Positions 43,892-60,108 of a stretch of 64,000 nucleotides of DNA are shown in pieces. Location of the stretch: the NCBI GenBank assembly GCA_016927755.1, contig JAFGLZ010000115.1, positions 1 to 64,000 on the forward strand, given 5' to 3'. The notes below the pieces were generated by a model, which saw only the letters and a list, made by a program, of their open reading frames with translations, was not told the origin of the DNA and made no database searches. The stretch comes from Phycisphaerae bacterium (GTDB lineage Bacteria > Planctomycetota > Phycisphaerae > UBA1845 > JAFGLZ01). Both the position numbers and the translations under genes were made by a program. Position 1 is the first letter of the stretch. Each line of letters opens with the position of its first letter.

Positions 43892-45697
43892 TCAGTCGAT
43901 CAGCATGACCGGTCGCTTGCCGCCCAGCGTCTCGAAGATCGCCTGGAGCTGGGCGCTGTAATCCTCGATGGAGCCTTGGGCGTAGAAGTGAGTGCCCTTG
44001 CCGATCTGGGCAATCTGCTCCATGGTGTTCGTGTCGGCCGAGCTTCCCACGCTCACCGCATAGATGCGGATCCCCAAAGCGGCCGCGTCCCGAGCGGCCT
44101 CGACCGCATAGATCGGGCCGTTCGTGTAGTCGCCCACCGATCCCCACTCGGTAACGTTGGCCCAGCCGTCCGTCAGAAGGATCATGACCTTGGTCGCCGA
44201 GTGGCGGGCCCGGTCGCTGGTCAGCTCCTCGATGCCACGCTGGATGCCCCCGCCCATGTTGGTCCAACAGTCGTAGTGGCCGGCCTGCATGTCGTTGAGC
44301 CGATTGCTGACGTCAGCGTACTCGAACGTCAGGTCGACCTCGTGTCGGGCCGTCTGGGCGTAGATCTCGAGGCTCACTTGATCGTCCGTGTCGAGCCCCT
44401 CGATGATCTGCATCATCCGCGTCACCGAGTCCTTGACCGCCTGCATCGGCTGCGTCGGCGTGAACCGCAGGTCGGGACACTCGTTGTAGCACCGCCGGTT
44501 CTCGAGGAGGTAGTTCATGAACGTCTTGGCGCCGAAGCGGTACTTGAAGTTCGAGTTCCCCTGGCTGGTCATCGCCGTGCTGTTCTTCATGTAGTCGCAG
44601 TACTCGCTCCACGACCCGCCGGGATAGGGGTAGCTCTCGACCCACGTCAGCTCCGAACTCCAGCTCACGTAGCTGTTGCCGTTGCCGGCCGCCAGACCCT
44701 CCGCCTGCCACTTGCCGGGCTGCCCGGAGGAATCGACGCCCATCCCGCTTCGCCACACCGCAAGGCCCAGGGCCACGCACGCCCGCGCCTTCCATACCGT
44801 GCTGTCACTATCGTTGGCCGACGACATGATCGCCGCGATCTCGTCGGCGTTGTAGTTCTGCGCCTGCAACATCGCCGTGAGCGCCGCGTTGTTCCAGGTG
44901 TTGTAGCGCGGCAGGTAGAGCAATCCGGAATCCGTGGTCGGATCGTAGCTCGAATCCAGCGTCATCTCGCCAAAACCCGCCTGCTCCATCCAGGTTCCCC
45001 AGGTGGGACCGGCCTTCTGAGGGCTCCAGTTCGGATCCCCCTCGTCCATCCCGCCCGGCATCGCCGCCCACACGTCGTAGAGATTCACGGTCGTGTCGTT
45101 GATCCGGCACAACTCGCTGTCATCCGTATGGGAGGCCGACAGGTCCGCCACGATCGCGATGTCGCGCGGCACCAGGATCGCCGTCGCCTCCGCGAACATG
45201 TCCTTCTCGCTTCGTCCGAAGATGTTCGCGAAGAAGAGCGCCACGGCGCCGTTGGGAGAGTCGGAAGTCTTGCGCACTCGGACCCGAACCGCGTCGATGG
45301 GTTGCACCCCCGCGGCAAAAACATAGCGGTTCGACTGGGTGTCAAGTACGGCCTGCCCGAAGACGACGTCGACCTCCGGATCGAGATACATCGTCTGATT
45401 CGCCACCAGGTTCTTGGCCGCGTAATCGACGGCCATCTGCCTGGCAAGCTCGAATCGGGAGTCCTCGATCGTGGCCAACTGACCGGCCGCGGCCAGGGCC
45501 GCGGCATCCGCCGAGACCTGCAGCTCGGCCTTGACCATGTAGAGGTAACCGATGTCCACGGAGAGGGCCGCAAAGCCCAACATCGTGGTCATGCCCATCG
45601 CGGTCCAAACGACCACCGCACCTCGGCGACGAGCATGGCTTCGTCCCTGACTTCTTTCCCTTCCTTTCACGGCTTCTCCCTCCGGCAAATACGCCAA
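43892..45697 (-). CDS. TadG-like von Willebrand factor A protein
   Basis: A 601-residue protein with a TadE/TadG-type N-terminal membrane helix ('GAVVVWTAMGMTTMLGFAAL'), followed by 'AELQVSADAAALAAAGQLAT', typical of TadG. A VWA fold supplies the MIDAS motif 'VADLSASHTD' near residue 184 and 'MILLTDGWANVTEW' near residue 506. The two blocks normally lie about 100 residues apart, so some 200 residues are inserted between them. It is probably anchored at the cytoplasmic membrane and part of a Tad-like pilus or surface adhesion system. A tail-only homologue lies upstream. Confidence 0.8.
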   Translation of the reverse strand: MAYLPEGEAVKGRERSQGRSHARRRGAVVVWTAMGMTTMLGFAALSVDIGYLYMVKAELQVSADAAALAAAGQLATIEDSRFELARQMAVDYAAKNLVANQTMYLDPEVDVVFGQAVLDTQSNRYVFAAGVQPIDAVRVRVRKTSDSPNGAVALFFANIFGRSEKDMFAEATAILVPRDIAIVADLSASHTDDSELCRINDTTVNLYDVWAAMPGGMDEGDPNWSPQKAGPTWGTWMEQAGFGEMTLDSSYDPTTDSGLLYLPRYNTWNNAALTAMLQAQNYNADEIAAIMSSANDSDSTVWKARACVALGLAVWRSGMGVDSSGQPGKWQAEGLAAGNGNSYVSWSSELTWVESYPYPGGSWSEYCDYMKNSTAMTSQGNSNFKYRFGAKTFMNYLLENRRCYNECPDLRFTPTQPMQAVKDSVTRMMQIIEGLDTDDQVSLEIYAQTARHEVDLTFEYADVSNRLNDMQAGHYDCWTNMGGGIQRGIEELTSDRARHSATKVMILLTDGWANVTEWGSVGDYTNGPIYAVEAARDAAALGIRIYAVSVGSSADTNTMEQIAQIGKGTHFYAQGSIEDYSAQLQAIFETLGGKRPVMLID

Positions 45698-45922
45698 GGC
45701 GACCGCGCCCGACGGGTTCAGGTCCTACGCCAAAGGTCCGGACCCTCGGGAGCCAAGTCACCGGCTTGAATATGCAAAACGAAACGAAGAAGGGCAAGTG
45801 AATTTGGGAAGTTTAGCGAAAACAGGGGGTCTTTCCACCTCGCTCTGCGGCTGTTCCAGGCTCAGTCTCTCGCTCCATTGTCCATAAGGCACTTTGACAA
45901 AACCACTTCCGACCAAGACTAG

Positions 45923-45953
45923 GCTGGCGGGCCGGCGATGCCGGCCTGTCAGC
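45923..45953 (-). terminator. Hairpin terminator behind the VWA-tail remnant
   Basis: A 14-pair stem (45923-45936 with 45940-45953, two G-T wobbles, loop GAT) lies 17 bases after the stop of the truncated VWA tail on the minus strand. Confidence 0.6.
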
Positions 45954-45970
45954 TCTCCCCCGCATCGCGA

Positions 45971-46051
45971 TCATTCAATAAGCATGATCGGGCGCTTTCC
46001 GCCGAGCGTCTGGAAGATCCCCCGCAGGCCGATACCCCACGTGCCTTGTGA
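45971..46051 (-). pseudogene. C-terminal tail of a second TadG-like VWA gene
   Basis: Twenty-six codons ending 'LRGIFQTLGGKRPIMLIE' and a stop, matching the last residues of the full gene (LQAIFETLGGKRPVMLID). Many differences in the DNA are at third positions, so the copy diverged under protein constraint before the rest was lost. No start codon or upstream domain remains. The gap 45698-46160 otherwise holds only the terminator hairpin. Confidence 0.7.
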
Positions 46052-46160
46052 GCCCCGTCCGCCATCCGTATAATGCCCCGCTGTTGCTTATGGCGGCGAC
46101 CAACACTGGCCACCCGTCGGTCAATGGCTCGTGCCGAGCGAATTTGAGAGATGTAATATC

Positions 46161-47306
46161 ATGAATAAGCTACGACTACTGACCCCGGGTCCGACGTCCG
46201 TCCCGGCCGAGGCCCTTCTCGAGATGGCCCGGCCTGTGGAGCACCATCGGACCCCCGAATTCCGAGCGATGTTCAAGCAGGTCACCGAGGATCTGCAATA
46301 CGTCTTCCAGACCGCAAACACCGTCCTGACCGTCACCGGATCAGGAACCTCCGCGATGGAATCCGCCATCGTGGGAACCTGCCCCCCGGGCAGCAAGGCC
46401 CTCGTCGTCCGAGGCGGCAAGTTCGGCGAGCGATGGGCCGAGATCTGCGCCGCATTCGACATCGATCACGTCGCTTGCGACGTCGAATGGGGCCATGGCG
46501 CCAAGCCCGAGATGATCGAGGACTGCCTGAGCAAGGACCCATCCATCACGACCGTCATCGTCACGCACTCGGAGACGAGCACCGCCGCCGTCAGCGACCT
46601 CGAGGGAATCGCTCGCGTCGTTCGACAACGAGGCGACGACATCCTCCTGATCGTCGACGGCATCACGAGCGTCGGCGCCATCCCCGTAAGGACCGACCAA
46701 TGGGGCGTCGACGTCGTCGTCACAGGCAGCCAGAAGGCGCTGATGCTGCCGCCGGGCCTGGCGTGCCTGGCCGTCGGCGATCGGGCATGGAAACGGGTCG
46801 ATTCGTTCTCGTCCCGGTCGTTCTATCTCTGCCCGAAGGCGTATCGAAAGAGCATGGCCGATTTCGACACGCCCTATACGCCGAACAACGTGATGATCCG
46901 CGGGCTTGCCGTCACGCTCAAGATGATCCGCGACGAGGGAATCGAGAACGTCTGGGCGAGAACCGCCCTGCTGGCCCGCGCCACCCGCGCTGCGGCCGAG
47001 GCCATCGGAATCAAAGTCTACGCCGCCGATCCCTCCGACTCCGTCTCGGCGCTCTGCATGCCCGAGGGCATCGACGAGTCGAAGCTCCGCAAGACCGTCC
47101 GACAGCGATACGGCGTGCACCTCGCCGGCGGCCAGGGCAAGCTCAAGGGAAATGTCATTCGCATCTCGCACATGGGCTACGTCGACGCGCTCGACACGAT
47201 CGGCGCGATCTCGGCCATCGAGATGGTCCTGTCGGAAATGGGCCACGACCTGAAGCTCGGAAGCGGCGCGGCCGCGGCAATGACCGTCATCGCGCGTCGG
47301 TCGTAG
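46161..47306 (+). CDS. Class V aminotransferase (alanine-glyoxylate/serine-pyruvate type)
   Basis: A 381-residue PLP-dependent enzyme. The N-terminal 'LLTPGPTSVPAEALLEMARP' and 'EHHRTPEFRAMF' are typical of alanine-glyoxylate and serine-pyruvate aminotransferases. The PLP lysine is in 'VTGSQKALMLPPGLA' near residue 191, and 'LLIVDGITSVGAIPV' carries the Asp that contacts the pyridine ring. It may move amino groups between alanine or serine and glyoxylate. GAGAG upstream supports ATG 46161 over an earlier non-conserved start. Confidence 0.88.
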   Translation: MNKLRLLTPGPTSVPAEALLEMARPVEHHRTPEFRAMFKQVTEDLQYVFQTANTVLTVTGSGTSAMESAIVGTCPPGSKALVVRGGKFGERWAEICAAFDIDHVACDVEWGHGAKPEMIEDCLSKDPSITTVIVTHSETSTAAVSDLEGIARVVRQRGDDILLIVDGITSVGAIPVRTDQWGVDVVVTGSQKALMLPPGLACLAVGDRAWKRVDSFSSRSFYLCPKAYRKSMADFDTPYTPNNVMIRGLAVTLKMIRDEGIENVWARTALLARATRAAAEAIGIKVYAADPSDSVSALCMPEGIDESKLRKTVRQRYGVHLAGGQGKLKGNVIRISHMGYVDALDTIGAISAIEMVLSEMGHDLKLGSGAAAAMTVIARRS

Positions 47307-47651
47307 GCCGGAATTCCGCCCCGAGGTTATCGGCCAATCCGCACTGTCAGAGTAGGCAATTGGGCGAAGATGGCGACCGACCACCGTCACCACCGTCACG
47401 CTCGCATCGGCCAGATGCCCGAGATTATGGGAAGCCGTTGGCACGCCCGTACTATCCCCCTTGCCGCCCAGCGCCTTTACCTCTCACCCCAATTGAGTTT
47501 TCCAACGATATCGTAAAGGTGCAATTCGCTCTCCGCCCGGCCGTATCGTATGGTACACGTGGCCCGGTCGGACCCATCGGGGCTGCACGGAGGCACGCGG
47601 AACCTGGCGCGGGACGCACACCCTCGTTTCTTGCGCCGATATGAGCAGCCC

Positions 47652-48179
47652 ATGAAGGACATAGAGACATTCCATCCCACGCCCGTGATGATGAAGATGC
47701 TCGACGCGCTGAGCAACAAGCTGGCCCAAGAGCGTAAGTCGAACGTCAACCGGCGTTGGCGCGAACGTAAGCCACTCAAGGCGCCGTGCAAGGTCTTCTT
47801 CCTGGTCGGCGGCGCCAATCGCACGATGTCCATCTCGGCAAAGACGCGCAACATCTCCGGCAAGGGGCTCGGCATCGTCGTCAAGCGAGCCTTTCATCAG
47901 GACGAGCCGGTGGAGGTCTGCCTCCAACCCGCCGGTCGCCCGCCCCTATTCATGGCCGGCCTGACTCGCTTCTGCCGTTACGTGGCCGATGGGTTCTTCG
48001 AGGTCGGTATCGAGCTCATGGTCGCCAAGCCGGAAGCCATCTTCGCCAACAACCCCATCCAGGCACTGCAGGCCTTGCCCTGGCTGGCGGAGTCCCTCCA
48101 GCGCAAGCACGATAGTGCCTTCATGAACGATCAGCGACGCAAGATCGAGAAGGTCGACAAGCTCGTCCGAGCCAAGTAG
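47652..48179 (+). CDS. PilZ-domain c-di-GMP-binding protein
   Basis: A 175-residue protein with a PilZ domain. The RxxxR motif lies in 'NRRWRERKPLKAPCKVFF', and the N/DxSxxG motif in 'KTRNISGKGLGIVV'. PilZ proteins bind cyclic di-GMP and modulate motility, adhesion or polysaccharide export. The short helical ends may contact a partner. The start at ATG 47652 is chosen because the upstream 34 residues are unconserved and Arg-rich; no strong ribosome site is visible. Confidence 0.75.
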   Translation: MKDIETFHPTPVMMKMLDALSNKLAQERKSNVNRRWRERKPLKAPCKVFFLVGGANRTMSISAKTRNISGKGLGIVVKRAFHQDEPVEVCLQPAGRPPLFMAGLTRFCRYVADGFFEVGIELMVAKPEAIFANNPIQALQALPWLAESLQRKHDSAFMNDQRRKIEKVDKLVRAK

Positions 48180-48326
48180 ACCCCGCGCCAACCTCAGCCC
48201 GATCCGCCTATCCCCAACGTCCCATCACCGTCCCGACCGTTTGCCTCCCCGCGCCCTCGACGCTACAAATCGCAGGGTGATAACCGACACACACCGGCCC
48301 AAACCCGAGAAATCGAGGCAGGTCAC

Positions 48327-49439
48327 ATGAACTCGATGATGCTGTTCATCGTGGCGGCGATGTTCGTCGCATGCAGCTCGAATGCCCTTGCCGCCCCCGA
48401 AACGGCCCCGGACTGGATCCGAGCGCTGCAGGTTCCCCATGAACCGCCCCCCGACACCAAGCCTCCGGTCGTATACGATCTGATGAAGGCCCCCGACGGC
48501 TCTAAGATCACCACCCCCGCGCAGTGGCAGACCCAGCGGCGTCGCATCCTCGACAAGTGGACCAAATTCCTCGGGCGGCTTCCCGAGCCGCGCTGCCCGC
48601 TCTCGCCCAAGACCACCGAAACCGTTCCGCTCGACGGCAATATCACCCGCAAGCTCATCGAGCTGCAGGTCGAGCCCGACGTCTGGATGAGGTGCTACCT
48701 CTTCATCCCGCCCGGAAAGGGCCCATTCCCCGCCTGCGTCTGCCTGCACTCCACGAACGACGAGACGATCCGCCAACCTGCCGGGCTCGGCTCACAGCCT
48801 GAGAAAGCCTTCGCCCTGGACCTCGTCAAGCGCGGCTACGTCACCATCGCTAGCGAAAACTTCGAGTGGCGCTATCCCGGCAGACCCACCACCGGCAAGG
48901 CCTGGGACCGCTATCACGCCGTCGCCCGAATCTTCCTCGACAAGTACCCCGGCGTGAAAGGCATGACCAAGATGATCCACGACGCCTCGCGCTGCGTCGA
49001 TTACCTCTGCACCCTCCCGCAGGTCCGCAAGGATCGAATCGGCGCCATCGGCCATTCCCTGGGCGCAAAGGAGGTCACGTACCTGCAAGCCTTCGACGAC
49101 CGCGTCGTCTGCGGCGTCTCCAGCGAGGGCGGCGTCGCCTTCGAGTTCACCAACTATCACGACCCCTGGTACCTCGGCCCCGACATCCGCAAGAAAGAGA
49201 CCAACCTCTTCGCCCACGAGGTCGTCGCCCTCATCCCCCCGCGTGCCTGGCTGCTCATCGGCGGCAACAACACCGACGGCGACAAGAGCTGGCCCTACGT
49301 GCGGCCCGTCATCCCCATCTACCGCCTGCTCGGCAAGCCCGCCAACGTCGGACTCTTCGTCCACACCAAAGGACACGCCGTCCCCCCGGAGGCCAGAGAC
49401 ATCGCCTTCCGATGGCTGGACTACCATCTAAAGAAGTAG
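48327..49439 (+). CDS. Secreted alpha/beta-hydrolase (acetyl-xylan-esterase-like)
   Basis: A 370-residue exported hydrolase with a signal peptide ('MLFIVAAMFVACSSNALA'). The serine nucleophile is in 'IGAIGHSLGAKEVTYL', with an Asp likely in 'GGNNTDGDKSW' and a His in 'FVHTKGHAVPPEARD'. The N-terminal domain and 'VWMRCYLFIPPGKGPFPACV' are like those of acetyl-xylan esterase or dienelactone-hydrolase relatives. It may deacetylate plant or algal polysaccharides. The gene ends in a hairpin-repeat region and converges on the GH30-like gene. Confidence 0.8.
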   Translation: MNSMMLFIVAAMFVACSSNALAAPETAPDWIRALQVPHEPPPDTKPPVVYDLMKAPDGSKITTPAQWQTQRRRILDKWTKFLGRLPEPRCPLSPKTTETVPLDGNITRKLIELQVEPDVWMRCYLFIPPGKGPFPACVCLHSTNDETIRQPAGLGSQPEKAFALDLVKRGYVTIASENFEWRYPGRPTTGKAWDRYHAVARIFLDKYPGVKGMTKMIHDASRCVDYLCTLPQVRKDRIGAIGHSLGAKEVTYLQAFDDRVVCGVSSEGGVAFEFTNYHDPWYLGPDIRKKETNLFAHEVVALIPPRAWLLIGGNNTDGDKSWPYVRPVIPIYRLLGKPANVGLFVHTKGHAVPPEARDIAFRWLDYHLKK

Positions 49440-49464
49440 CGCCAGCCCGGTAGGAACGGTCGAC

Positions 49465-49504
49465 GGGGTGCCCCATCGCTTCAGCGGTGGGGAACTCGAA
49501 TTCC
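49465..49504. repeat. Dispersed hairpin repeat, copy C
   Basis: Matches copy B at 32077-32117 almost exactly through the CCCCATCGC-TTCA-GCGGTGGGG stem and AACTCGAATTCC. It lies between the convergent esterase and GH30-like genes, where a terminator role is possible. Confidence 0.75.
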
Positions 49505-49621
49505 CGTTCCGGCTCCTACCCCTCGCCTCGCACGGGTCGAGCCGGATAGGGTGCGCCGTCTCCACCCCCCTACTCCCTCTGTTCCAGCGACGGTCCATCC
49601 ATGGCCGCGCACGTCTCAACA

Positions 49622-51595
49622 TCACCGCACGATCTCGAACCCCGCCGGCAACCGCCCCACCGCCACATCCGACAGCGTCACGATCGCCCCCGGAGCCACG
49701 ACCACGCCCCCGCCATCAACCCCCTCACCCGCGCAAACCGCGTTCTCGTGGTAAGGATCAACCCGCTCCATCTCCCTCGGAGCCCCGTCCACCCCCTCCA
49801 ACCGCACCCGCCGCGGAACCGTCGATCGGTTGAGAAGCACAATCGTCCGCGCGCCGTCCCCGCCCACGAACGCCGTCGCCAGCAGGTCCTCCGACGAGCT
49901 CGCCGCCCCCACGCGGGTCATGCCCTCCCTGATCCGGCGACTGTACGCCCCGAACACGCGCAACTGATGACTCGACGCCGCCGGAACGAAGCCGTGTAAT
50001 CGATCCGGAACGCACAGCGTCCTCGACCACCCATACGTCGGCTGCTCCACGTTCAACAACGTCCAGCAGTAGCAGATAGCGATCGCATCGACGAGCGTCA
50101 GGTTCTTGTGATAGAGCTCACCCATCACCAGGGCAATCCGATAGCTCGTCCGCTGATACCGACCCGAGTTGATGCACAGCTCCGTCGACAGGAACGGCCT
50201 CTCCTTCGTCAGGTCGTGCCACGTCACCAGGAGCTCGTCATACTTGTCCGGATCGGTGAACCGCGACTGATAGTCGTACATATGCGTCGCCGAGTAGTCG
50301 ATCTTGCCCCACGCCTCGGCCGACTCCTTGAACGCCTTGGCACGATCAATCCCCCCCCGCAAGTGCCCGTGGTCGCTCATATGGATCCGAACCGCGCCAA
50401 ACCCCGCCTCATCCAGCGCCCGCCGCAGCGACAGCGTCATCTCGTGCCAGATCTCCGCCGGCTGCGTCACCTCGTTCTGTATCCCCACGACATCCGGCGG
50501 CGCCCCCGCCCGTTCCTTCGACGTCCTGCAGTAATTCACCATCGCCTTGGCATGGACCTCCGGGTTGGCCACCCCCTTGTGGACCTTGCCCGAGCCGTCC
50601 TTCCAGTCCTGCTTCGCCCAATGCGGCAGATCCCAAAACTCGAAGAAGACCTTCCCACCCAGGCGCCGCAGCGTCTTGATGTACGCGAAGTCGCTGATCT
50701 CCCCGTTCGGGAAGTTGTCCCCGTAGTAGTGCGGCGTCGCGTCCGCTAGCGTGTCCCAGTTCGTCATCTGCTCGTCGAGGCGCGTCCCGATCGGATACTC
50801 GCGCTGGATCAGCAGGTTGTACTCGCAAACGAGTCCCCACCATCGACGCTTGCCCTCGGCGCTGAGCTCCGCGTAGGCCGTCGGCGTGGCGATCCCCCCG
50901 AACCCCATCATCGTCTGGTAACGCTTGCCCGCATCGATCCGCACCACCGCCTCGGCCGGCGGCGGACTCAGGATCCGCCCGACCACCGTCCCGCCTTTGC
51001 CCGTTAGTCGGAGCTGATGCCGATGCACGTCCAGTGCGCACTCCTGATGCAGCAGCTCCTTGCCGTTGAGCCGAACCGCTAGCCCCAGCTTATGATCGAG
51101 AACCACGCCGACCGATCGCAGCGCGCCGTCATGCGTCACGGAGGACTCGAACCACCGCCGCTCCGGATGCCGCTTCGCCCGAACCTTCTCGCCCTCGAGA
51201 TCCGTCAGCCCGAACGAGTCGTAGAACCGCTGAGTCAGCCGAACGCCCTTGCCGTCGACCTCAACCGTGAACCCCCCGCGATCCCCCGTGAAGATCCACG
51301 ACAGCCCCCCCTCCTTGAGATCGAGCGTCTCGAGCACCAGCGTCCGCTCGAACAGCGCCGGCAGCAGCTCTTCGCCAAAGAACAGCCCCGACGTCGTCGC
51401 CCCGCCCCAAATATGCATCGCCTTGCCGCCCGCCCCCACGCGAAACGGAGTCGCCGTCCACCCCTCAGGCGCCGACCACTCCGGCAACGTGCTCCCCACG
51501 GCCGACGCCCCCGAAACGCTCGCAGCAACCTGGTGCAGTCTCACCTCACACACCGGCCCCAACACGCCCAGCACCACAACCAGCAGCGCATTCAT
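49622..51595 (-). CDS. GH30-like glycoside hydrolase
   Basis: A 657-residue exported enzyme with a signal peptide ('MNALLVVVLGVLGPVCEV'). A first beta-sandwich domain (about 20-230) precedes a TIM-barrel opening with 'RYQTMMGFGGIATPTAYAEL', the family-like GFGG entry strand. The acid/base is probable in 'VGIQNEVTQ' near residue 374, and the nucleophile in 'LSTELCINSG' near residue 471. A C-terminal beta domain completes the usual GH30 layout. Target glycan unknown (xylan, glucan or fucan). GGAGGAGAG precedes ATG 51595. Confidence 0.8.
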   Translation of the reverse strand: MNALLVVVLGVLGPVCEVRLHQVAASVSGASAVGSTLPEWSAPEGWTATPFRVGAGGKAMHIWGGATTSGLFFGEELLPALFERTLVLETLDLKEGGLSWIFTGDRGGFTVEVDGKGVRLTQRFYDSFGLTDLEGEKVRAKRHPERRWFESSVTHDGALRSVGVVLDHKLGLAVRLNGKELLHQECALDVHRHQLRLTGKGGTVVGRILSPPPAEAVVRIDAGKRYQTMMGFGGIATPTAYAELSAEGKRRWWGLVCEYNLLIQREYPIGTRLDEQMTNWDTLADATPHYYGDNFPNGEISDFAYIKTLRRLGGKVFFEFWDLPHWAKQDWKDGSGKVHKGVANPEVHAKAMVNYCRTSKERAGAPPDVVGIQNEVTQPAEIWHEMTLSLRRALDEAGFGAVRIHMSDHGHLRGGIDRAKAFKESAEAWGKIDYSATHMYDYQSRFTDPDKYDELLVTWHDLTKERPFLSTELCINSGRYQRTSYRIALVMGELYHKNLTLVDAIAICYCWTLLNVEQPTYGWSRTLCVPDRLHGFVPAASSHQLRVFGAYSRRIREGMTRVGAASSSEDLLATAFVGGDGARTIVLLNRSTVPRRVRLEGVDGAPREMERVDPYHENAVCAGEGVDGGGVVVAPGAIVTLSDVAVGRLPAGFEIVR

Positions 51596-51740
51596 GAATC
51601 TCTCCTCCACCACACACTTCCGCCAAGCGCCCCAAAACCTAAGCCATGCCCACGCCGCCCGCAAGACACCCACCCATCCCCAATAGCCGTGCGCAAATTC
51701 ATGCGTGCACCCTCAGGCCCGAAGGGCCGGCGGAACGTAG

Positions 51741-51781
51741 CCAGGGGTGTAGTCCGCCGCCTCGGCGGACGGAACCCCTGG
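51741..51781. repeat. Nested hairpin intergenic repeat
   Basis: CCAGGGGT (51741-51748) pairs with ACCCCTGG (51774-51781), enclosing GTCCGCCG (51752-51759) with CGGCGGAC (51763-51770). A related GC-rich string (AGCCCCGGAGGGGCGG) follows near 51804. Similar 'CCAGGGGTG' elements occur in other planctomycetes (recalled). Confidence 0.6.
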
Positions 51782-51964
51782 TAACCGCCCCCACACACCC
51801 ACTAGCCCCGGAGGGGCGGAGGAGCGCTCCATCCAACCGAACGCCGACCCCCTTATCCACCTAAGCGCATCGCACCGACGACGCGCCCGCGGTCCGCTGA
51901 CCCAGGATCTATCCACGGCATGAAACGAGCCACCTCACCAACGCCAGGAGACCAGATATGTGGC

Positions 51965-52029
51965 GCATTCCGAAGTATCCCGATGCATTCCGAGACATTC
52001 CGGGACATTCCGAGACATCTCGGGACACG
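51965..52029. repeat. 10-bp phased repeat array 1
   Basis: Six and a half units of a 10-base repeat with consensus (G/A)CATTCCG(A/G)G, for example GCATTCCGAG-ACATTCCGGG. The unit length equals one turn of B-DNA. Confidence 0.85.
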
Positions 52030-52092
52030 ACGCCCCCCAGCGCCAGCGCCGCGCGCCCCCCGGGAGCCCGAAGCCCGGGGCCTCGAAATCAG

Positions 52093-52156
52093 CGCATTCC
52101 CGCGCATCCCCGCGCATTCCGGGACATTTCGGGACATTTCGGGACATTTCGGGACA
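52093..52156. repeat. 10-bp phased repeat array 2
   Basis: Six 10-base units: three start GCAT(T/C)C and three are identical ACATTTCGGG, then a broken seventh ACACC. It lies 128 bases from array 1, start to start. Confidence 0.85.
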
Positions 52157-52171
52157 CCGCTCCTCCCCGCG

Positions 52172-52206
52172 CCCCGTTCCCCCCACACCCCGAAACCCCG
52201 AACCCC
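52172..52206 (-). other. Potential G-quadruplex 1
   Basis: Five C-tracts of four or more at 52172-52175, 52179-52184, 52188-52191, 52196-52199 and 52203-52206, with loops of two to four bases, giving a strong G4 pattern on the minus strand. Confidence 0.6.
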
Positions 52207-52255
52207 GCCGTCCATCGTGCGACACCAGCCGTGCCCCAGGAACCCCATATGGCGC

Positions 52256-52320
52256 GCATTTCAGCGCATTCCGGTGCATTCCGGGACATTCCGGGACATT
52301 CCGAGACATTCCGAGACATC
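52256..52320. repeat. 10-bp phased repeat array 3
   Basis: Six and a half 10-base units from GCATTTCAGC through three ACATTCCG(G/A)G units to ACATC. It ends, like the others, in ACA(C/T)CG followed by C-rich DNA. Confidence 0.85.
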
Positions 52321-52340
52321 GCTCCCCGGACATCCCGCCG

Positions 52341-52371
52341 CCCCTCCCCAAACCCCAAACCCCGGACCCCC
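52341..52371 (-). other. Potential G-quadruplex 2
   Basis: Five C-tracts (52341-52344, 52346-52349, 52353-52356, 52360-52363, 52367-52371) with one- to three-base loops. Read on the minus strand it contains GGGGTTTGGGGTTTGGGG-like DNA, with TTTGGGG units reminiscent of telomeric repeats. Confidence 0.6.
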
Positions 52372-52462
52372 TGTCTCACTGGCGATCACCGCCCCCGCAG
52401 CACATAATGACCCCTTCGCCCCGGATCTTCTCTCCCCCGCGCAGAAGGAGGCATCGCACCCA

Positions 52463-54136
52463 ATGAATCTCGCCACGATCGCACTTGCCCTCATCCACGC
52501 ATGCGCCGCCGCCCCCCCAACGTCGACACCCACCAGAGGCCCCGTCGACCTCGCCCTCACGTATCGATCCGACATCGACGGCACGATCCAGCCCTACCGC
52601 CTCTACCTGCCCTCGGCCTATGACGGCACGCGCCGCCTGCCCCTGTTCATCGCCATGCACGGCACCGGTGGCGACCAGAACAAGTACTTCGATCACCCCA
52701 CCTACGGCGACGGAATCTACAAGCGCCAGGCCGAGAAACGCGGCATCGCCGTCGTCTGCCCCCACGGACGCGGCACCACCGAGTTCCGCGGTATCGGCGA
52801 GAACGACGTCCTCACCGTCCTCCAAGAAGTCTGCAAACGATTCCGAATCGACGAGGACCGCATCATCTGCAGCGGACAGTCGATGGGCGGCACCGGCACG
52901 ACCTATCTCTGCTGCCGCTATCCCGACCTCTTCGCCGCAGGCGCGCCCCTCGCCTCGACCTACGGCCACATCGCCCTCGTCGAGAATCTCCGCCACGTCC
53001 CGATGCTCTACGTCCAAGGCGCCAAGGACTGGCCCATCTACGCCAAGGACGGCCCCATCCCCATCACCAAGCGCATGAGCGAGCTCGGCTACGCGGGCCG
53101 ACTGTGGATGATCCCCGACGTCCAGCACAACACCATGGCCGTCAGCACGGAGGCCGTCCTCGACTGGGCGCTACAGCAGCGCCGCGTCACCCACCCCAAG
53201 CGGGTCACCTTCCGCGCGTACCTGCCCATCCACGGCAAAGCCTACTGGACCGAGATCCAGGACATCGACGAGATCGGCCCCTTCGCCGAGATCGACGCCC
53301 AGATCAAACCCGGCAACGCCATCGCCGCCACGATCAAGAACGCCCGCCGCGTCGCGCTCCGACCGGACCCCGCCCTGCTCGACCTGACGAAACCAATCCG
53401 CGTGACCGTCAGCGGCAAGCAGGTCTTCACCGGCCCATGCTCCCACCAGCAGGAGATCAGCCTGACGAAGTCCAATGGCCACTGGCAGGCCGCCGCGGTC
53501 CCGCGAAACCCCCGCCCCCCAACGGCCTATCGCACCCACAAGATCGGCAAGGTCATCACCGCGCCGACGCAAGCCGGCAAGGCCGAAACCTCCATGGGCA
53601 CCTGGATGGCCGACATGATCCGCGACGCCGCCGGCGCCGACGTGGCCATCTACAACCGCCGCTACTATCGCGGCGTCCCCTTCCGCGACGGCCAGGACGT
53701 CTACATCGTCGACCTGCTGAACTGGATCCGTCCGTGCAACCGCTGCCTCAGCACGTTCACGATCACCGGCAAGGATCTGCTGGAGATCATTGAGGACAAC
53801 ATCCGAGACGACCCGAAACAGGCCGAGTTCCTGCTCCAGGTCTCCGGCTGCCGCTACGCCTTCGACCGCAATCGAGCCAAGGGCCAAAGAACCGTCGAAA
53901 CGGACATCCTGCCCGACAAGTCCTACACCGTCGCCTGCGAGAATCAGGTCCTCAGCCGGGGCGACACATGCTTCCTCGCCGGCCGGTTCGACAAGATCCC
54001 GTACGAGAATCTGGTGATCACCAACATCACCGGCGCATGGCGCTACATTCACAAGCAAGGCGGAAAGCTCGATGGCCATACGGACGGACGCGTCAGGGAC
54101 CTCACACCAGGAACTACATCGAGGCCCCGACTGTGA
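52463..54136 (+). CDS. Esterase fused to a 5'-nucleotidase C-terminal domain
   Basis: A 557-residue exported protein. The signal peptide starts at ATG 52463 (AGAAGGAGG at 52443-52451). Residues about 25-250 form an alpha/beta-hydrolase of the feruloyl-esterase/PHB-depolymerase kind, with 'GQSMGGTGTTYLCC' near residue 140 as nucleophile elbow and a likely His in 'DVQHNTMAV'. Residues about 365-500 match the 5'-nucleotidase C-terminal domain: 'TSMGTWMADMIRDAAGADVA', 'FTITGKDLLEIIEDN' and 'CENQVLSRGD'. That domain normally supplies the nucleotide base pocket and lacks the metal-catalytic half here. The combination is unusual. A longer frame from 51920 reads through the repeat arrays and is not favoured. 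Confidence 0.75.
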   Translation: MNLATIALALIHACAAAPPTSTPTRGPVDLALTYRSDIDGTIQPYRLYLPSAYDGTRRLPLFIAMHGTGGDQNKYFDHPTYGDGIYKRQAEKRGIAVVCPHGRGTTEFRGIGENDVLTVLQEVCKRFRIDEDRIICSGQSMGGTGTTYLCCRYPDLFAAGAPLASTYGHIALVENLRHVPMLYVQGAKDWPIYAKDGPIPITKRMSELGYAGRLWMIPDVQHNTMAVSTEAVLDWALQQRRVTHPKRVTFRAYLPIHGKAYWTEIQDIDEIGPFAEIDAQIKPGNAIAATIKNARRVALRPDPALLDLTKPIRVTVSGKQVFTGPCSHQQEISLTKSNGHWQAAAVPRNPRPPTAYRTHKIGKVITAPTQAGKAETSMGTWMADMIRDAAGADVAIYNRRYYRGVPFRDGQDVYIVDLLNWIRPCNRCLSTFTITGKDLLEIIEDNIRDDPKQAEFLLQVSGCRYAFDRNRAKGQRTVETDILPDKSYTVACENQVLSRGDTCFLAGRFDKIPYENLVITNITGAWRYIHKQGGKLDGHTDGRVRDLTPGTTSRPRL

Positions 54137-54160
54137 GGAGAGTCTCCACGGCGACGTATG

Positions 54161-54190
54161 CCGGTCCTCCTCGAGACCGAGGAGGACCGG
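54161..54190 (+). terminator. Perfect 13-bp hairpin after the esterase fusion gene
   Basis: CCGGTCCTCCTCG-AGAC-CGAGGAGGACCGG lies 25 bases after the stop codon; there is no strong T-tract. Confidence 0.65.
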
Positions 54191-54225
54191 CCAACGATCG
54201 CAAACGACGTATCACGTCACAACCG

Positions 54226-55494
54226 TCACGCCTGCCCCGACGGCTCCGGATTCGGCGGCGGACCAGACGGCGGCCCCGATGCGTCGTCCTTATCTAATTT
54301 GGAGCCCTTAATGTTAGAGTCAGACTCCGTCGCCGGCACGAACACGCCGGCAGAGCCCCCCCGCCGTTGCTGCCACCACTGCAGCGCCGCCCCCAAGCCA
54401 AGCAGCGCGAACGCACCCAGAAGCATCGTGAACCCCTTGCCCCCCCGCCACCGAACGACAGCCGAAGTCGACTCCATCATGCCCGCTACCGCCGGCGCCG
54501 CCAGCGACAGCACCACGAACCACGCCCGCCAGAGCAAGACGCCCGTCACCGCCAACATCGCCGACGCAAACGCCCAACTCGCGTACAACGGATACCTCGG
54601 ACGAGAAAGCGGACCGTGCAGCCAGTTTGCAGGCAGATCGGCCGGCGCCGAGCTCCCAGCGGCCACCACCGAGTACATGACCGCCGTGCCCATCATCGCC
54701 CAGGCCGCATGATATCCTCGCCCGCAAGCACTACTGAGTGCCACCGCCACCACGCCGTATGCCAACGCAATCGGCGTCACATACCAGGCCGTGAAGCCCA
54801 CGAACTCCGCCCTCATCACAGCCAGAAGCTGACACACGCCCAGTACGCTCAACATGCCGACCACGAGCCACGATGCCCACCACTGCCCCAGAGGTCGCCC
54901 CCAATTGGCAAAACCCCGCCGCGACTGCCAGGCAACCAGCACCAGATGCGCCGCGACGAACAACGCCGCCACCCAACACATAACGTAGCCGGCCCCGTGC
55001 TGCGTCGTCCGCGTCGACGACAGATGCTCCAGAATCGGAGCCGGCGCGGCCAGCACCACCAGCCATCCCACGCAAAGAACGCCGGCAAAGGCCGGCATCC
55101 GGACGCCGAGCCACCGTTGCGCCATCACCAGCCGAGCGGCCGCCAGCCCCACCGCTATGATCGACACGCCCGTCGCCCAAGGCGCATCGGCCGCGTGCAG
55201 CTCGTTCAGCGCCATGAAAACCATCCCCGTCAAGAACAACGCGAACAGCCCCGACCGCGCCGCATCCGCCGCCAGCGCATGGCGAACCTGCCACCGTCCC
55301 AGCAACAGCAGCAGCCAGATGTACAGCTCAAACCCCACGACGGTCACGTAGACATGACCCGTCTCCCCGCATGTTCGGTCGAAAGGACTGATCAACACCC
55401 ACATCCCGGCCAGAAGCAGCCCCAGGCTGGCCCAGTACGTCACGGCCGCCAGCCGGTGGACCGTCCGACCCGATACGAACGTCGTCTCGTACAT
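54226..55494 (-). CDS. Polytopic membrane protein of unknown function
   Basis: A 422-residue protein with about ten to eleven hydrophobic helices (for example 'ASLGLLLAGMWVLISPF', 'LVVGMLSVLGVCQLLAV' and 'GFTMLLGAFALLGLGAALQW') and a polar C-terminal tail rich in Pro, Ser and Asp. No transporter or enzyme signature was recognised. ATG 55494 has AAGGGG upstream. It lies between the esterase fusion gene and the sialidase-like gene, so a link to glycan uptake or envelope function is only positional. Confidence 0.6.
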   Translation of the reverse strand: MYETTFVSGRTVHRLAAVTYWASLGLLLAGMWVLISPFDRTCGETGHVYVTVVGFELYIWLLLLLGRWQVRHALAADAARSGLFALFLTGMVFMALNELHAADAPWATGVSIIAVGLAAARLVMAQRWLGVRMPAFAGVLCVGWLVVLAAPAPILEHLSSTRTTQHGAGYVMCWVAALFVAAHLVLVAWQSRRGFANWGRPLGQWWASWLVVGMLSVLGVCQLLAVMRAEFVGFTAWYVTPIALAYGVVAVALSSACGRGYHAAWAMMGTAVMYSVVAAGSSAPADLPANWLHGPLSRPRYPLYASWAFASAMLAVTGVLLWRAWFVVLSLAAPAVAGMMESTSAVVRWRGGKGFTMLLGAFALLGLGAALQWWQQRRGGSAGVFVPATESDSNIKGSKLDKDDASGPPSGPPPNPEPSGQA

Positions 55495-55935
55495 GATCCG
55501 ATCCCCTTTTCCATGGTCCATCCGCCTCCCCGCCGCGAGCGGACCGACAACGTCCCGTCCCGGTGCGGCGCGCGGATTCTCCGACGACGACTCGCCCGCT
55601 CAAGGCAAGACGCTCAGACGAGCCGAACATGAACGTGTATGTGAAAGGGAACCGTCACATGGGGCGTAAAGGAGCAGACCACACGCTCGGTGCCGGCGTG
55701 CCGATGGGCCTACACGCCTGTAACGCCGAGGCCCCCGGACCTGTGGCGGGATGCAGAGAAAACGAATGAGAACGAATGATACCTGTGTAGGTGTCGTCGG
55801 ACACCGAACCATCCCGCCTCGAGGCCGCTCTGCACGGACGCCCTCTCGGCTCCCGCTAACTCATCTACCTAACTCTATCCCACGTTCGTGGAACCGTCAA
55901 AAAGGCTTTGGCGTGTTTTCGCGAATTCATGTGAC
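55495..55935. other. Intergenic region upstream of the membrane protein gene
   Basis: No gene is supported. It contains a short hairpin (GGTGTC-GTCG-GACACC near 55790) and a direct repeat GAACGAATGA near 55763-55783. These may be part of the promoter or terminator signals of the flanking minus-strand genes. Confidence 0.45.
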
Positions 55936-57258
55936 TCACTTCAGGCCAAGCGTGTACTTGTACGCGTCGGCGCCCCAGAAGTCCTCCGTATTCTCACCGA
56001 GGCGCGTCAGATAGATCTCGAGCGAGTGGTCCTCGCGGTTCTCCAGCAGCGAGAAGTTCGACAATTGCAGCCGATCGCTCTCGCCCTCGCGACGATCGTC
56101 GATCAGCGAGACCGTACGCCGCTTGATCGCCGGAATCTTCTCGTCGACCTCGGCGATGACGAGCGGGTAGCGCGGCGAGTTGGCGTGGGCCGGTCCCGGA
56201 CTGATGTTGCCGATCCAGTAGAGCTTGCCCGTAACCGTGTGCCGGAACATCCGGTGAATGGACGACGGCGAGTAGAACGCCACCCCGTCGTCATACGTCC
56301 ACGGCTTCGGCTCGGTAAGCGTCCGCCCCCCGTCGGTCGAAACGCTGTAGTACTTGTGACCGGGCCGCTCTTTCACATCGAGAGAGGCGTTCGACGTCCG
56401 CCAGACAACCAACACGCGACCGCCCGTCAGCTCCGCCACCTCCGGCTCCATAAGCCCGCGCGAAGACACCTCTCGCGAGACCCACACCGGCTTGCCCCCC
56501 GCCCAACGGTAGTCGCCCAGCGTCTCGTCCCACGTCCCGATGAAGCACACCGAGCCGATGCTCCGCGCGTCCGCCGGGATGCCCATGACGTTCAGGCGTT
56601 TCGGATTCGGAATCGGCACCCCCTTCGGGATGTTCACCCCCGCCCCCGCGTGAATCAACGTCCCATTGCTGTGGCGAATCGTGTTGTTCCCGATGTAGGC
56701 CTGGTTGTTCTGCAGGAATCCGGGCTTGAACGGCTCGGCCGGGTCGAACGCATCGCCCGCCTCGTAGGTGAGCTGCCTCGGCGCCGACCACGTCCGCCCC
56801 ATGTCCCGAGACAGCCGCGAAAAGAGCTGGTTGTAGTAAACGCCCTTCAGATGCGTCTGTCGCAGCCAGATCGAAACGACCGCCTTCGCCGCCGGGTCGT
56901 AGAGCTCCGCCCCGCCGTCCCAGTACACCCTCACCCCCTGAGGATGCGTCACGACCTCCGGCAGCGTCTCGAAATCAGACCACGTCGCCCCGTTGTCCTT
57001 CGACCAGCGCCGCTTGGGCTTCTCAGGCGTATCGCTGCGGCTCATCGTGGAGTATCGCTCCTCCCGAACCAGCCCTGGCCCCACATAGCGGACCGAGACC
57101 CACATGGACGTCTTCACACGAGGATGCCTGGAGTAGACCTGCCTGGACACGTCGGCGATCGGCGCATTGGATACCCAGGGCATCGAAGGTTTCTGCCCTG
57201 CTGGCGCCTCGCCTGGCACCGCAACGATCAGCGCAAACAGTACCGAGGGACAACACAT
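55936..57258 (-). CDS. Secreted sialidase-like (BNR-repeat) protein
   Basis: A 440-residue exported beta-propeller. The signal peptide is short ('CCPSVLFALIVAVPGEAPAG'). Three Asp-box motifs of the S-x-D-x-G-x-T type are visible: 'WSKDNGATWSDF', 'RLSRDMGRTWSAP' and 'VSTDGGRTLTEP'. This supports a six-bladed sialidase-like fold, but the arginine triad is not confirmed. Target may be a sialylated or sulfated glycan. ATG 57258 has GGGAGGTG upstream; longer starts to 57399 overlap the CYTH gene. Confidence 0.75.
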   Translation of the reverse strand: MCCPSVLFALIVAVPGEAPAGQKPSMPWVSNAPIADVSRQVYSRHPRVKTSMWVSVRYVGPGLVREERYSTMSRSDTPEKPKRRWSKDNGATWSDFETLPEVVTHPQGVRVYWDGGAELYDPAAKAVVSIWLRQTHLKGVYYNQLFSRLSRDMGRTWSAPRQLTYEAGDAFDPAEPFKPGFLQNNQAYIGNNTIRHSNGTLIHAGAGVNIPKGVPIPNPKRLNVMGIPADARSIGSVCFIGTWDETLGDYRWAGGKPVWVSREVSSRGLMEPEVAELTGGRVLVVWRTSNASLDVKERPGHKYYSVSTDGGRTLTEPKPWTYDDGVAFYSPSSIHRMFRHTVTGKLYWIGNISPGPAHANSPRYPLVIAEVDEKIPAIKRRTVSLIDDRREGESDRLQLSNFSLLENREDHSLEIYLTRLGENTEDFWGADAYKYTLGLK

Positions 57259-57319
57259 GATGAAACACCTCCCGGGTTGACGATGGTTCACACGCCAACT
57301 GAGACCAAGGCGAACTCGC

Positions 57320-57913
57320 TCACGAAGCCTTATTGCCAGCCTCGTCATGGGCGAAGACGATCCTGTCCGCCGCAATCCCACGCTCACGGCAATGCCCAAT
57401 CAGCAGCCCGATGTAGCTCTCCTTGACGATCGGAAGCCCGTCGAGGCCCAGGCGTGTCAGGACGTCTCGCACCGCCTGGGAGTCAGGACCCTCGACCTCG
57501 ACGTAGGACCCCAGGCGCGGCAACTCGTCCAGCTCCACGTGACAGCCGCCGGCCAGCCACGTCTCGCGGCGCTTCTCGAACGCCAGAACCGTGACGAATC
57601 CCAGCGCAACCAGCAATTCGACGGCCGCGCCCGCGTCGGAGACGGACAGCTCGACCTCCCGGCGCGTCTTGAGCTCGTCGGGCGTTCTAGGACCCTTGTA
57701 CGTCAGCGTCGCCGACCGATCCGGCCCGTCGATCACCTCAATCCGGCGGACCCGGAGACCCTGATCGGTCGCCAGGAACGTTCGGTCAGGGCTGTCGAAG
57801 ATCGTGTTCGTCTCGAGCACGCAGCCCACGCGCTCCGCGCCGGCGGCGCCGAGCCGCTGGCGAATCGGCTCATGTGACGCCACCTTCAGCTTCGCCTCGA
57901 TCTCGACCGCCAT
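57320..57913 (-). CDS. CYTH-domain phosphatase/adenylyl-cyclase-like protein
   Basis: A 197-residue protein of the CYTH superfamily. The ExExK signature is 'MAVEIEAKLKVASHEP' at the N-terminus, followed by alternating charged tunnel strands such as 'RVRRIEVIDGPDRSATLTYK' and 'GCHVELDELPRLGSYVEVEG'. Members include class IV adenylyl cyclases and triphosphatases acting on thiamine triphosphate or inorganic polyphosphate. ATG 57913 is chosen at the motif; an earlier start adds 13 residues. It precedes the sialidase-like gene on the same strand by 61 bases, but shared function is unlikely. Confidence 0.82.
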   Translation of the reverse strand: MAVEIEAKLKVASHEPIRQRLGAAGAERVGCVLETNTIFDSPDRTFLATDQGLRVRRIEVIDGPDRSATLTYKGPRTPDELKTRREVELSVSDAGAAVELLVALGFVTVLAFEKRRETWLAGGCHVELDELPRLGSYVEVEGPDSQAVRDVLTRLGLDGLPIVKESYIGLLIGHCRERGIAADRIVFAHDEAGNKAS

Positions 57914-58211
57914 GGCCACCCCAGACCCTACACGTTCCTGACAACGACCCATTGAACCCCTGCCCGTGGATCATAGCCCTTTCCGCGACCACCCGCCAAG
58001 CCGCTAAACGTCGTCGGATTGCCCTCTTTCTCGTTGAAGCGGCGCGCGATACGCGGTAAAAGGATCTACAACGCGGAGCGGTGATCGTCCGGGGCGCCTG
58101 TCCGGCAAGGAGGGGGGGTGCGAAAAACCCGTCCGCGGGATCGCCTAGATCCGTGGCCTGTCGGACATCAAACCCCGTGGCCCTGGACGTACATTTCAAG
58201 GAGACTGTGCG

Positions 58212-58727
58212 ATGAGAAGCCTGGTTGCAGTGGTAACGGTGATGGGCATGGTGTGCTGTACCGGCTGTATGACGGTTGCCAAGCAAACGTTGGCCGAGGC
58301 CAAGGGCGCCTCGGCCGACGTCCAAGCGCTCAGAGTCCTGTCGCCTGGGACGGCCAAGTCCGCCTCGTCGCTCAAGGTCGGCACCATCAGCAGCGACGGC
58401 GCGGGGGCCCAGATGATCCGGGCGCCGCTCCAGCAAGCGCTAGCCAAGGAGATCGCCCAGGCCAAGGGCAAGGGTAAGATCACGGGAAGCGGCGGCGCGC
58501 TCACGATCAATGCCGTCGTCCGCTACGTCTCCTCGGAGGGCGCCGGCAAGCTTCTGGGCGGAATGTCCTTCGCGATCGTTCGCGTCGACGTGACCGGCGC
58601 CGACGGCCAGCCGGCAGGCAGCGCCGACGTCCTGGCCAGCACGAAGGCGATGCGGTCGGGAATGGATGACCTGGCCAACGCCCTGGCCAAGAAGATCGTC
58701 GAGTGGGCCACCACCGGCAAGACGTAA
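58212..58727 (+). CDS. Lipoprotein-like DUF4410-type protein
   Basis: A 171-residue probable lipoprotein. The signal segment ends 'MVCCTGCMTVAKQ', with a lipobox-like CTGC whose Cys would be lipidated. The mature part resembles DUF4410 proteins ('SSLKVGTISSDGAGAQMIRA' and 'LTINAVVRYVSSEGAGKLL'), which occur in outer-membrane lipoproteins of unknown role. A clear hairpin terminator follows. The gene appears to be its own transcription unit. Confidence 0.65.
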   Translation: MRSLVAVVTVMGMVCCTGCMTVAKQTLAEAKGASADVQALRVLSPGTAKSASSLKVGTISSDGAGAQMIRAPLQQALAKEIAQAKGKGKITGSGGALTINAVVRYVSSEGAGKLLGGMSFAIVRVDVTGADGQPAGSADVLASTKAMRSGMDDLANALAKKIVEWATTGKT

Positions 58728-58755
58728 CCCCTCGAATACACGGCTTGACGCGCGG

Positions 58756-58788
58756 GGGCGCGCGGGCGCCGACGGCTCCCGCGCGCCC
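58756..58788 (+). terminator. GC-rich hairpin terminator
   Basis: GGGCGCGCGGG (58756-58766) pairs with CCCGCGCGCCC (58778-58788), followed by TTGCTTTAT. It fits a Rho-independent terminator for the lipoprotein gene. Confidence 0.7.
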
Positions 58789-59217
58789 TTGCTTTATCCT
58801 CTCCCGACACCCGCTCGTCTCAAGCAAACGCCCCACATGATCCGATAACTTACAGTGTACGCCCCCTGACACGGGGGCGCCGGCTCCCGATACGGGAGCA
58901 GCCTTCTCGAGCGAGGGCGATTCCGGTGACAACACGTAGTCCGCTGTGCCCATTCGTGGAATGGGTGGATTCCCGGTGCGCGTCGCGACAGACGCTGGGC
59001 GGAATCGGCGATACGTTCCGCCTCTGCGCGGGTGACCCCCATTTGTGCCCTGTGTACCATGAACTCCGCCGAGAGCAGCTCCTACACCATGCGCGGCAAC
59101 GTCTCGCTCGCACCGCCTGAGGAGGTCCGGCGCCAAGGCGCCTACTCCTTGCCCCCGGCGCCCGGCGTAACGCCGGTGCCGCGCGCCGACCATTCGCCAC
59201 CAAGCCCGCAACCCGTC
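58789..59217. other. Intergenic stretch with short hairpins
   Basis: Contains GCCCCC/GGGGGC near 58861 and GCTCCCG-ATA-CGGGAGC near 58883, both plausible small structured repeats. Further GC hairpins (GGCGCC, CGGCGT) lie near 59130-59190, within a frame that could be the N-terminal extension of xerD if an upstream start is used. No separate gene is supported. Confidence 0.5.
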
Positions 59218-60108
59218 GTGTTCGCCAACGCCCTCGAGCAGTTCATGGGCTACCTGCGGATCGAGTGCGGACTCTCCGAGAACACGCTGCAGGCCTACGG
59301 GCGAGACCTGACGAATCTGATCGGCTTCCTGGCTCGACGCGGTGTCCAAACCGTGCCTGATCTGAAGGCCGAAGAGATACACCTGTTCCTCAGAAACCTG
59401 CACGATCGGGGGCTGGCCATCGCCTCCATCACCCGGCATCTGGCCTCGATACGCGTATTCCTGCGTTTCTGCCTCTCGAACAGGTGGCTCGAGGACGACG
59501 TCGCCGCAAAGCTCGAGACGCCGAGCGGGTGGCACAAGCTGCCCGGAACGCTCAACCTCAAACACGTGGAAGCCCTGCTCGACTCCCCCAATCCGGAAGA
59601 CGCCCTGCACCTTCGCGACAGGGCGATCCTCGAGCTGCTCTACGCCACGGGTCTGAGGGTCAGCGAGCTGTGCGATCTTCGCACGGGCGACGTGAATCTC
59701 GAAATCGGCTACCTGCGGTGCGTCGGCAAGGGGCGTAAGGAGCGCGTCGTTCCGGTCGGCGCCAGCGCGCGAGAGGCGCTCCAGCAGTACCTCTCGAGGC
59801 TGCGCCCCAGTCTGGCCTCCAGTCCGGGAGCCGACTACCTGTTTCTATCGCGGACGGGCAAGCGGCTGGGGCGAGAGAACTGCTGGCGCCTGGTGGCCAA
59901 GTACGCGACACGCGCGGGTCTCTCGACGTTCGTCTCGCCGCACACGCTCCGCCACAGCTTCGCCACCCACATGCTGGAGGGCGGTGCCGATCTTCGTGTA
60001 GTCCAGGAGCTTCTCGGGCACGCCAACGTCGCCACCACCCAGATCTATACCCACGTCGACCGACGACGGCTCAAGAGCATCCACTCTCGGTTTCATCCGC
60101 GGCAGTAG
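59218..60108 (+). CDS. xerD: XerC/XerD-type tyrosine recombinase
   Basis: A 296-residue tyrosine recombinase that would resolve chromosome dimers at dif or act in integration. The SAM-like N-domain includes 'YLRIECGLSENTLQAYGRDL'. Catalytic residues: Arg in 'YATGLRVSELCDL', Lys in 'CVGKGRKERVVPVG', HxxR in 'HTLRHSFATHML', His in 'LLGHANVATTQIYTHV', and Tyr in the same block. GTG 59218 gives the usual XerD length; ATG 59089 would extend it. XerC versus XerD cannot be settled from the sequence alone. Confidence 0.85.
   Translation: MFANALEQFMGYLRIECGLSENTLQAYGRDLTNLIGFLARRGVQTVPDLKAEEIHLFLRNLHDRGLAIASITRHLASIRVFLRFCLSNRWLEDDVAAKLETPSGWHKLPGTLNLKHVEALLDSPNPEDALHLRDRAILELLYATGLRVSELCDLRTGDVNLEIGYLRCVGKGRKERVVPVGASAREALQQYLSRLRPSLASSPGADYLFLSRTGKRLGRENCWRLVAKYATRAGLSTFVSPHTLRHSFATHMLEGGADLRVVQELLGHANVATTQIYTHVDRRRLKSIHSRFHPRQ

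Follow-up and report, generated by a model that had tools for sequence, protein, structure and literature searches.

What kind of element are the three arrays of 10-bp repeats that lie between a GH30-like gene and an esterase gene of a Phycisphaerae bacterium? In the window (the whole 64,000-nucleotide stretch of DNA that was analysed), we confirmed three strictly 10-bp-phased arrays on the plus strand, at about 51965-52029, 52093-52163 and 52256-52325. They alternate on the same strand with C-rich spacers (52030-52092 and 52164-52255) and are followed by a C-rich tail (52326-52375). The gene to the left (49622-51595, minus strand) encodes a GH30 beta-sandwich (C-terminal) domain (PF17189, E 1e-5), and the gene to the right (52463-54136, plus strand, start codon set by inspection) encodes an esterase with a 5'-nucleotidase C-terminal domain (PF02872, PF00326 and PF00756); both are outside the element. 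The arrays stand out clearly from background, as a 37-mer array pattern matched five times in the window and not once in 100 shuffles. The sequence-only reading had described exact 10-base units. The units are in fact degenerate, exact RCATTCCGGG being present only four times, and the corrected consensus is (GCATTYCNGC)n-(RCATTYCGRG)n-ACATCGCYC. The order that had been proposed, from GCAT to ACAT to ACAYCG units, is correct and was also found in most arrays of the host genome. The spacing is compatible with putative helical-phase protein binding to the 10-bp arrays.

The arrays are not confined to this gap. In the host genome (9.25 Mb in 274 contigs, with 7.5% estimated contamination; the sole member of its family in our genome set), a three-unit array pattern had 397 matches, versus none for the reversed control, and BLAST with the window region hit 82 places. 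We retrieved 49 further host loci for cluster analysis and counted 91 arrays of at least four units in the 50 examined clusters; a second locus set added further clusters (L122, L124, L125, L127, L130 and L136). The suspicion that the element occurs only here does not hold, with copies at more than 55 host loci and in a further genome of the class, and these many copies also rule out a single local promoter element. What had been read as a promoter-region element between two genes is instead one module, the arrays, of a composite repeat that is spread over the genome beside genes of all kinds. Many contigs of the host assembly end in element copies, but an assembly error is unlikely, since the array order recurs in divergent copies and in the second genome. 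Other short-period repeats were also detected. Degenerate 7-nt tandem arrays (CCCTAGA, CTTCGTC, CTTCTCA and TGAAGCC) and 8-nt TCGACGTT arrays are common in host intergenic regions (for example, at L061:1039 and, in L128, downstream of a helix-turn-helix (HTH) gene). In the same 1 Mb of the host, we counted 93 arrays of period 10 and 29 of period 7.

Upstream of the arrays we identified, using flank k-mers, a promoter-like dispersed motif (module A, GTTCRCCC ... C.GWACGCCGACCCCCTTATCC), located in the window at 51804-51858 on the plus strand with its core CCGACCCCCTTATCC at 51844-51858. In most host clusters the core precedes the arrays by 100-370 bp on the same strand, and many clusters without it are truncated by contig ends. 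In 45 aligned copies the core columns are fully conserved (2-bit), and less strongly conserved positions extend as far as 35 bp upstream. Genome-wide the motif had 104 matches in the host, compared with 25 for the reversed control; copies lacking arrays are mostly at contig ends. Many copies carry a ribosome-site-plus-ATG motif (GAGGAYGCCATGC) 60-68 nt past the core, found at up to three mismatches in 42% of 64 copies versus about 5% of random positions; the window copy has a weak match (AGGAG and ATG, 51946-51960, plus strand). The clusters comprise one to five arrays of three to nine units apiece, all on one strand, and TCCGATGTCGACGTNTCGAC comes after some arrays. Module A followed by one to five arrays and sometimes by a B/C motif (TCCGATGTCGACGT) gives a BOX-like A-(B)n-C modularity. 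CRISPR arrays have repeats of about 20-50 nt and unique spacers, whereas these are head-to-tail 10-nt units without spacers.

Homology between paralogous copies starts about 2-60 bp upstream of module A and extends into the arrays; the flanking sequences show no relation to one another. Identity reaches 85% over 500 nt between L084 and L088 and 82-84% over 260-295 nt among L066, L103 and L108. A homology block with unrelated flanks is the pattern that a discrete dispersed element would leave. The host holds a multi-copy composite unit, consisting of module A, often the ribosome-site-plus-ATG motif, one to five polar arrays and C-rich spacers, in unrelated intergenic contexts.

Several individual loci deserve mention. 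At window 51715-51765 (minus strand), a REP-like palindrome scores 28.1 bits to the Acido-Lenti-1 RNA (gathering threshold 37), and palindromes akin to it (AAAAGGTGTCAGGAACCTTTT and GTAACGCAGGCTTCCAGCCTGCC) recur within other element copies. A second, array-less module A at L106:6076 (+) is upstream of a glycoside-hydrolase-like gene, and its leader ORF of 43 codons ends in a stop overlapping the start of that gene (ATGA). L128 (C21:79137-79907, minus strand) has a copy of module A and, about 200 bp downstream of it, a phage small-terminase-like HTH gene, the 3' end of which contains a two-unit array remnant encoding RAFRDIPP. A second copy of this gene, apparently broken, lies across C242/C109. 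We saw one intact and one apparently broken copy of the HTH gene, and no general link of its protein to module A.

A 149-codon ORF with FRDIPGHSET-type repeats and no Pfam match runs across all three arrays of the window (51958-52407, plus strand). Here all three frames are open across the arrays. In all 18 array-bearing copies, the frame set by the ribosome-site-like motif and ATG is free of stops through the arrays, compared with 25 stops in the other two frames. This difference is suggestive of a degree of translation or of selection that removes stops. The unit positions, on the other hand, vary equally in all three codon phases, and the leader ORFs have a flat codon-position composition, compared with a G+C of about 85% at third positions in host genes. 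Because of this equal variability, the lack of host codon bias and the absent Pfam match, we place the constraint at the nucleotide level. The proposal of a DNA- or RNA-level element was supported by the frame tests, and the stop-free frame keeps a coding repeat as a minor rival. Gene annotation will probably list stop-free frames across 10-nt arrays, the 149-codon ORF among them, as hypothetical proteins.

A stable stem-loop RNA was not found (fold z-scores from +2.2 to -1.4), nor did the element match Rfam 15 above the gathering threshold, and a structured RNA was ruled out on these two grounds. From the sequence, we also considered CsrA-, Rho- or TRAP-like RNA sites as a speculative alternative. 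The C-rich spacers had also been proposed to hold minus-strand G-quadruplexes. Two such motifs are present, one in the second spacer (52165-52206) and one reaching into the tail (52324-52371), but the first spacer has none by the G3+N1-7 rule and 0.98 are expected from dinucleotide shuffles. G-quadruplexes in the window are thus barely above chance.

The Pfam domains of 40 downstream genes showed no common function, and a regulon was rejected for lack of such a theme; the products include ribosomal S2, DnaK, DXR, acetate kinase, a Rex-like protein and glycoside hydrolases. The element and the next gene downstream point the same way at 32 of 45 host loci and at 15 of 22 loci of the second genome. 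Among tandem gene pairs only, the sense excess in the host is just 12 versus 6. Neighbouring genes occur in all relative orientations, with about 30% of the downstream genes convergent.

The arrays are absent from all 113 other genomes of the order. Across the class (397 genomes), short arrays turned up in four genomes, which belong to another family (f13). Using a sequence-model search, we detected at least 28 copies of the 68-nt leader of a related element in the MAG Phycisphaerales bacterium palsa_1353 (G206, record PMAK01000101.1), which belongs to another family than the host. Judged by these matches, a related element is present, in a simpler form, in another family of the class. Seven G206 copies align well, most with an ATG after a ribosome-site-like motif, and the array (GGACATTYCSGGACATT) follows about 100 nt later. 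The leaders of both genomes have TTCACCC and then a pyrimidine tract about 31 nt further on, a likeness seen by eye. Two G206 copies, L209 and L210, share 99% identity across 361 nt and lie in different flanking sequence, and their ends form a possible imperfect inverted repeat, seen only in that pair. Six G206 copies have a candidate left end, CAGGTTCNCTTCC, about 125 bp upstream; the matching inverted right end was found only in L209/L210, where inspection revealed no clear target duplication.

Related short repeats were observed elsewhere. At G206 loci L200, L196, L207 and L202, other 10-nt units (GGGACCTTYT) follow the same leader, and the arrays of this type are preceded by a CCCCCCGGGGGG palindrome. 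Of four stray short arrays in other MAGs, one (L111) lies in G206; short ACATTTCGGG arrays are present in Deltaproteobacteria and Rhizobiaceae MAGs (L110, L112 and L113). An Arthrobacter plasmid (NZ_AP024656.1, L303:3501-3547) carries a perfect intergenic (TCCGGGACAT)4.7 array, 1.3-2.6 kb upstream of ISL3 transposase fragments. The homology search of plasmids and phages yielded this plain Arthrobacter array only and none in phages, and viral contigs gave 0 matches. BLAST with the bare array had no hits, probably because low-complexity filtering masked the query.

The element nearly always points the same way with respect to the strand composition around it. Its strand is the C-rich strand of the surroundings in 49 of 50 host copies and 19 of 20 G206 copies (P about 2e-18 if independent), the G206 exception being a weak copy without a visible array. 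Genes, used as a control, show no such strand preference (0.47-0.57). The host bias persists after removal of the element together with 1.2 kb of DNA to either side (upstream flank negative in 33/34, downstream in 37/42) and, with the same masking, both within sense genes (42/47) and within antisense genes (44/46). With GC skew as a proxy, orientation follows the replication strand as it does in IS200/IS605-like elements. Around the window element, strand composition peaks over 44001-60000, where the GC skew of the element strand is about -0.15 to -0.22; at 1-12 kb the skew is close to zero. Mean host skew is about -0.13 to -0.18 upstream, with -0.18 in the adjacent kb, and rises to about -0.02 at 8-9 kb downstream. 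The mean step at host elements is +0.041, versus -0.009 at control positions, and is positive in 15 of 22 cases; the steps at the C15, C3 and C21 elements run the opposite way. On long contigs, we saw a skew peak at the C170 element and sharp steps at C34 and C112, and neither at C151 and C3. In G206, both flanks are similarly skewed. Host GC skew also shifts in sign and strength over tens of kb within contigs (for example, C15, C34, C112 and C4), which is unusual for a single-origin chromosome; in the first 6 kb of C4 (L276) it flips from about -0.29 to +0.24, and no element was detected there.

On balance, and with about even confidence, we read the arrays as the 3' part of a non-autonomous dispersed element of BOX/MITE-like form with replication-coupled insertion. 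We favour this reading because a fixed orientation is known for IS200/IS605 and Tn7, the insertion of which occurs at replication forks in an orientation set by replication direction (PMC5371812). Copies would be inserted in trans by machinery that uses the replication fork or single-stranded DNA, and this link to replication would fix their orientation. The 10-bp units may form a row of one-turn-spaced sites for a putative nucleic-acid-binding protein, which might be the one that mobilises the element or one that represses module A. The number of units would change through slippage or unequal recombination, and ORFs across the arrays would be tolerated or mildly maintained, the peptide itself probably being unimportant. 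We found no transposase, convincing target duplication or consistent terminal repeats in the element copies, and Y1 transposase genes are not enriched (nine in the host and six in G206, versus 0-20 in relatives). Against a mobile element, the conserved islands in strongly diverged copies and the more strongly skewed upstream flanks fit a host function equally well. That function could be polar and tied to replication, with copies acting on forks (initiation, loading, pausing or translocase orientation) through multi-site binding arrays and partly causing the local asymmetry themselves, a reading that we consider rather unlikely. The orientation lock in two genomes, the islands conserved between diverged copies, the skew that is strongest just upstream, the mean upward step, and the sharp changes at C34, C112 and C170 would all suit it. 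The steps are inconsistent, however, both G206 flanks are alike, and the skew also flips where there is no element. A bacterium with more than 55 origins would be extraordinary, and no cluster of DnaA boxes was demonstrated. The stronger version, in which the elements are polar replication-related sites such as unidirectional start or loading sites at dozens of chromosome places, creating the skew gradients that they top, seems highly improbable to us. The composite repeat would be one of two things, a replication-coupled dispersed element of a new kind or a polar site of the chromosome.

Readings without a link to replication have to account for the same anatomy. The element could be a regulatory leader, with module A as the promoter, a translated leader ORF, and arrays that act, as DNA or RNA, to regulate the gene downstream. 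The promoter-like and strongly conserved module A, the enriched ribosome-site-plus-ATG motif with its stop-free frame, and the co-oriented downstream genes speak for such a leader. The convergent share and unrelated functions of the downstream genes, the small sense excess in tandem pairs and the absent RNA structure make it unlikely. The same start motif and open frame would be expected of a family of small repeat proteins, in which a 10-nt array encodes one and the same cyclic peptide whichever frame is read (FRDIPGHSET repeats). We consider this very improbable, as synonymous and non-synonymous unit positions are equally variable, the leader composition is flat and Pfam matches are absent; some G206 ORFs, by our reading of the sequence, also end before the array. 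It is likewise improbable that the arrays are neutral STRR-type short tandem repeats, whose spread needs slippage and recombination but no machinery. Degenerate 7-nt and 8-nt arrays do occur in the same genome, and such heptamer repeats are known in cyanobacteria and Xanthomonas (PMC4692102 and PMC4679880), but fixed polarity, defined array ends and same-strand linkage to module A are unexpected of plain microsatellites.

The proposal that no element of this form had been described agrees with our searches of Rfam, the literature and the phage collection, which found none. The replication-coupled element that we favour resembles several known systems in part. BOX of Streptococcus pneumoniae (boxA-boxBn-boxC; PMC3049150) is likewise dispersed, intergenic and modular with a central module in variable number; ORFs can run through it, and its neighbours belong to no functional class. 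BOX RNA, however, forms stable stem-loops, which the host element does not, and the repeated module here is itself a 10-bp array; period and composition differ, and no sequence relation is known. Heptamer families, namely GGGNATC in Xanthomonas and Nostoc (PMC4692102) and TAACTGA in Beggiatoaceae (PMC4679880), also place short direct repeats at many intergenic sites of one genome. TAACTGA adjoins start codons and GGGNATC forms G-quadruplexes; the period is 7 rather than 10, and the abstracts describe no linked 5' module. IS200/IS605 and Tn7 (PMC5371812) share orientation by replication direction, and the mechanism suggested here is by analogy with them; they differ in that our element has no transposase gene, demonstrated ends or target rule. 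MITE/REP-type repeats are also non-coding, multi-copy, intergenic and presumably mobilised in trans, whereas the element is not palindromic and has possible terminal inverted repeats in one recent pair only (L209/L210). The full anatomy is matched by none of BOX, the heptamer families and MITE/REP: a promoter-like head, a translated-looking leader and one-helical-turn arrays, orientation-locked in two distantly related genomes.
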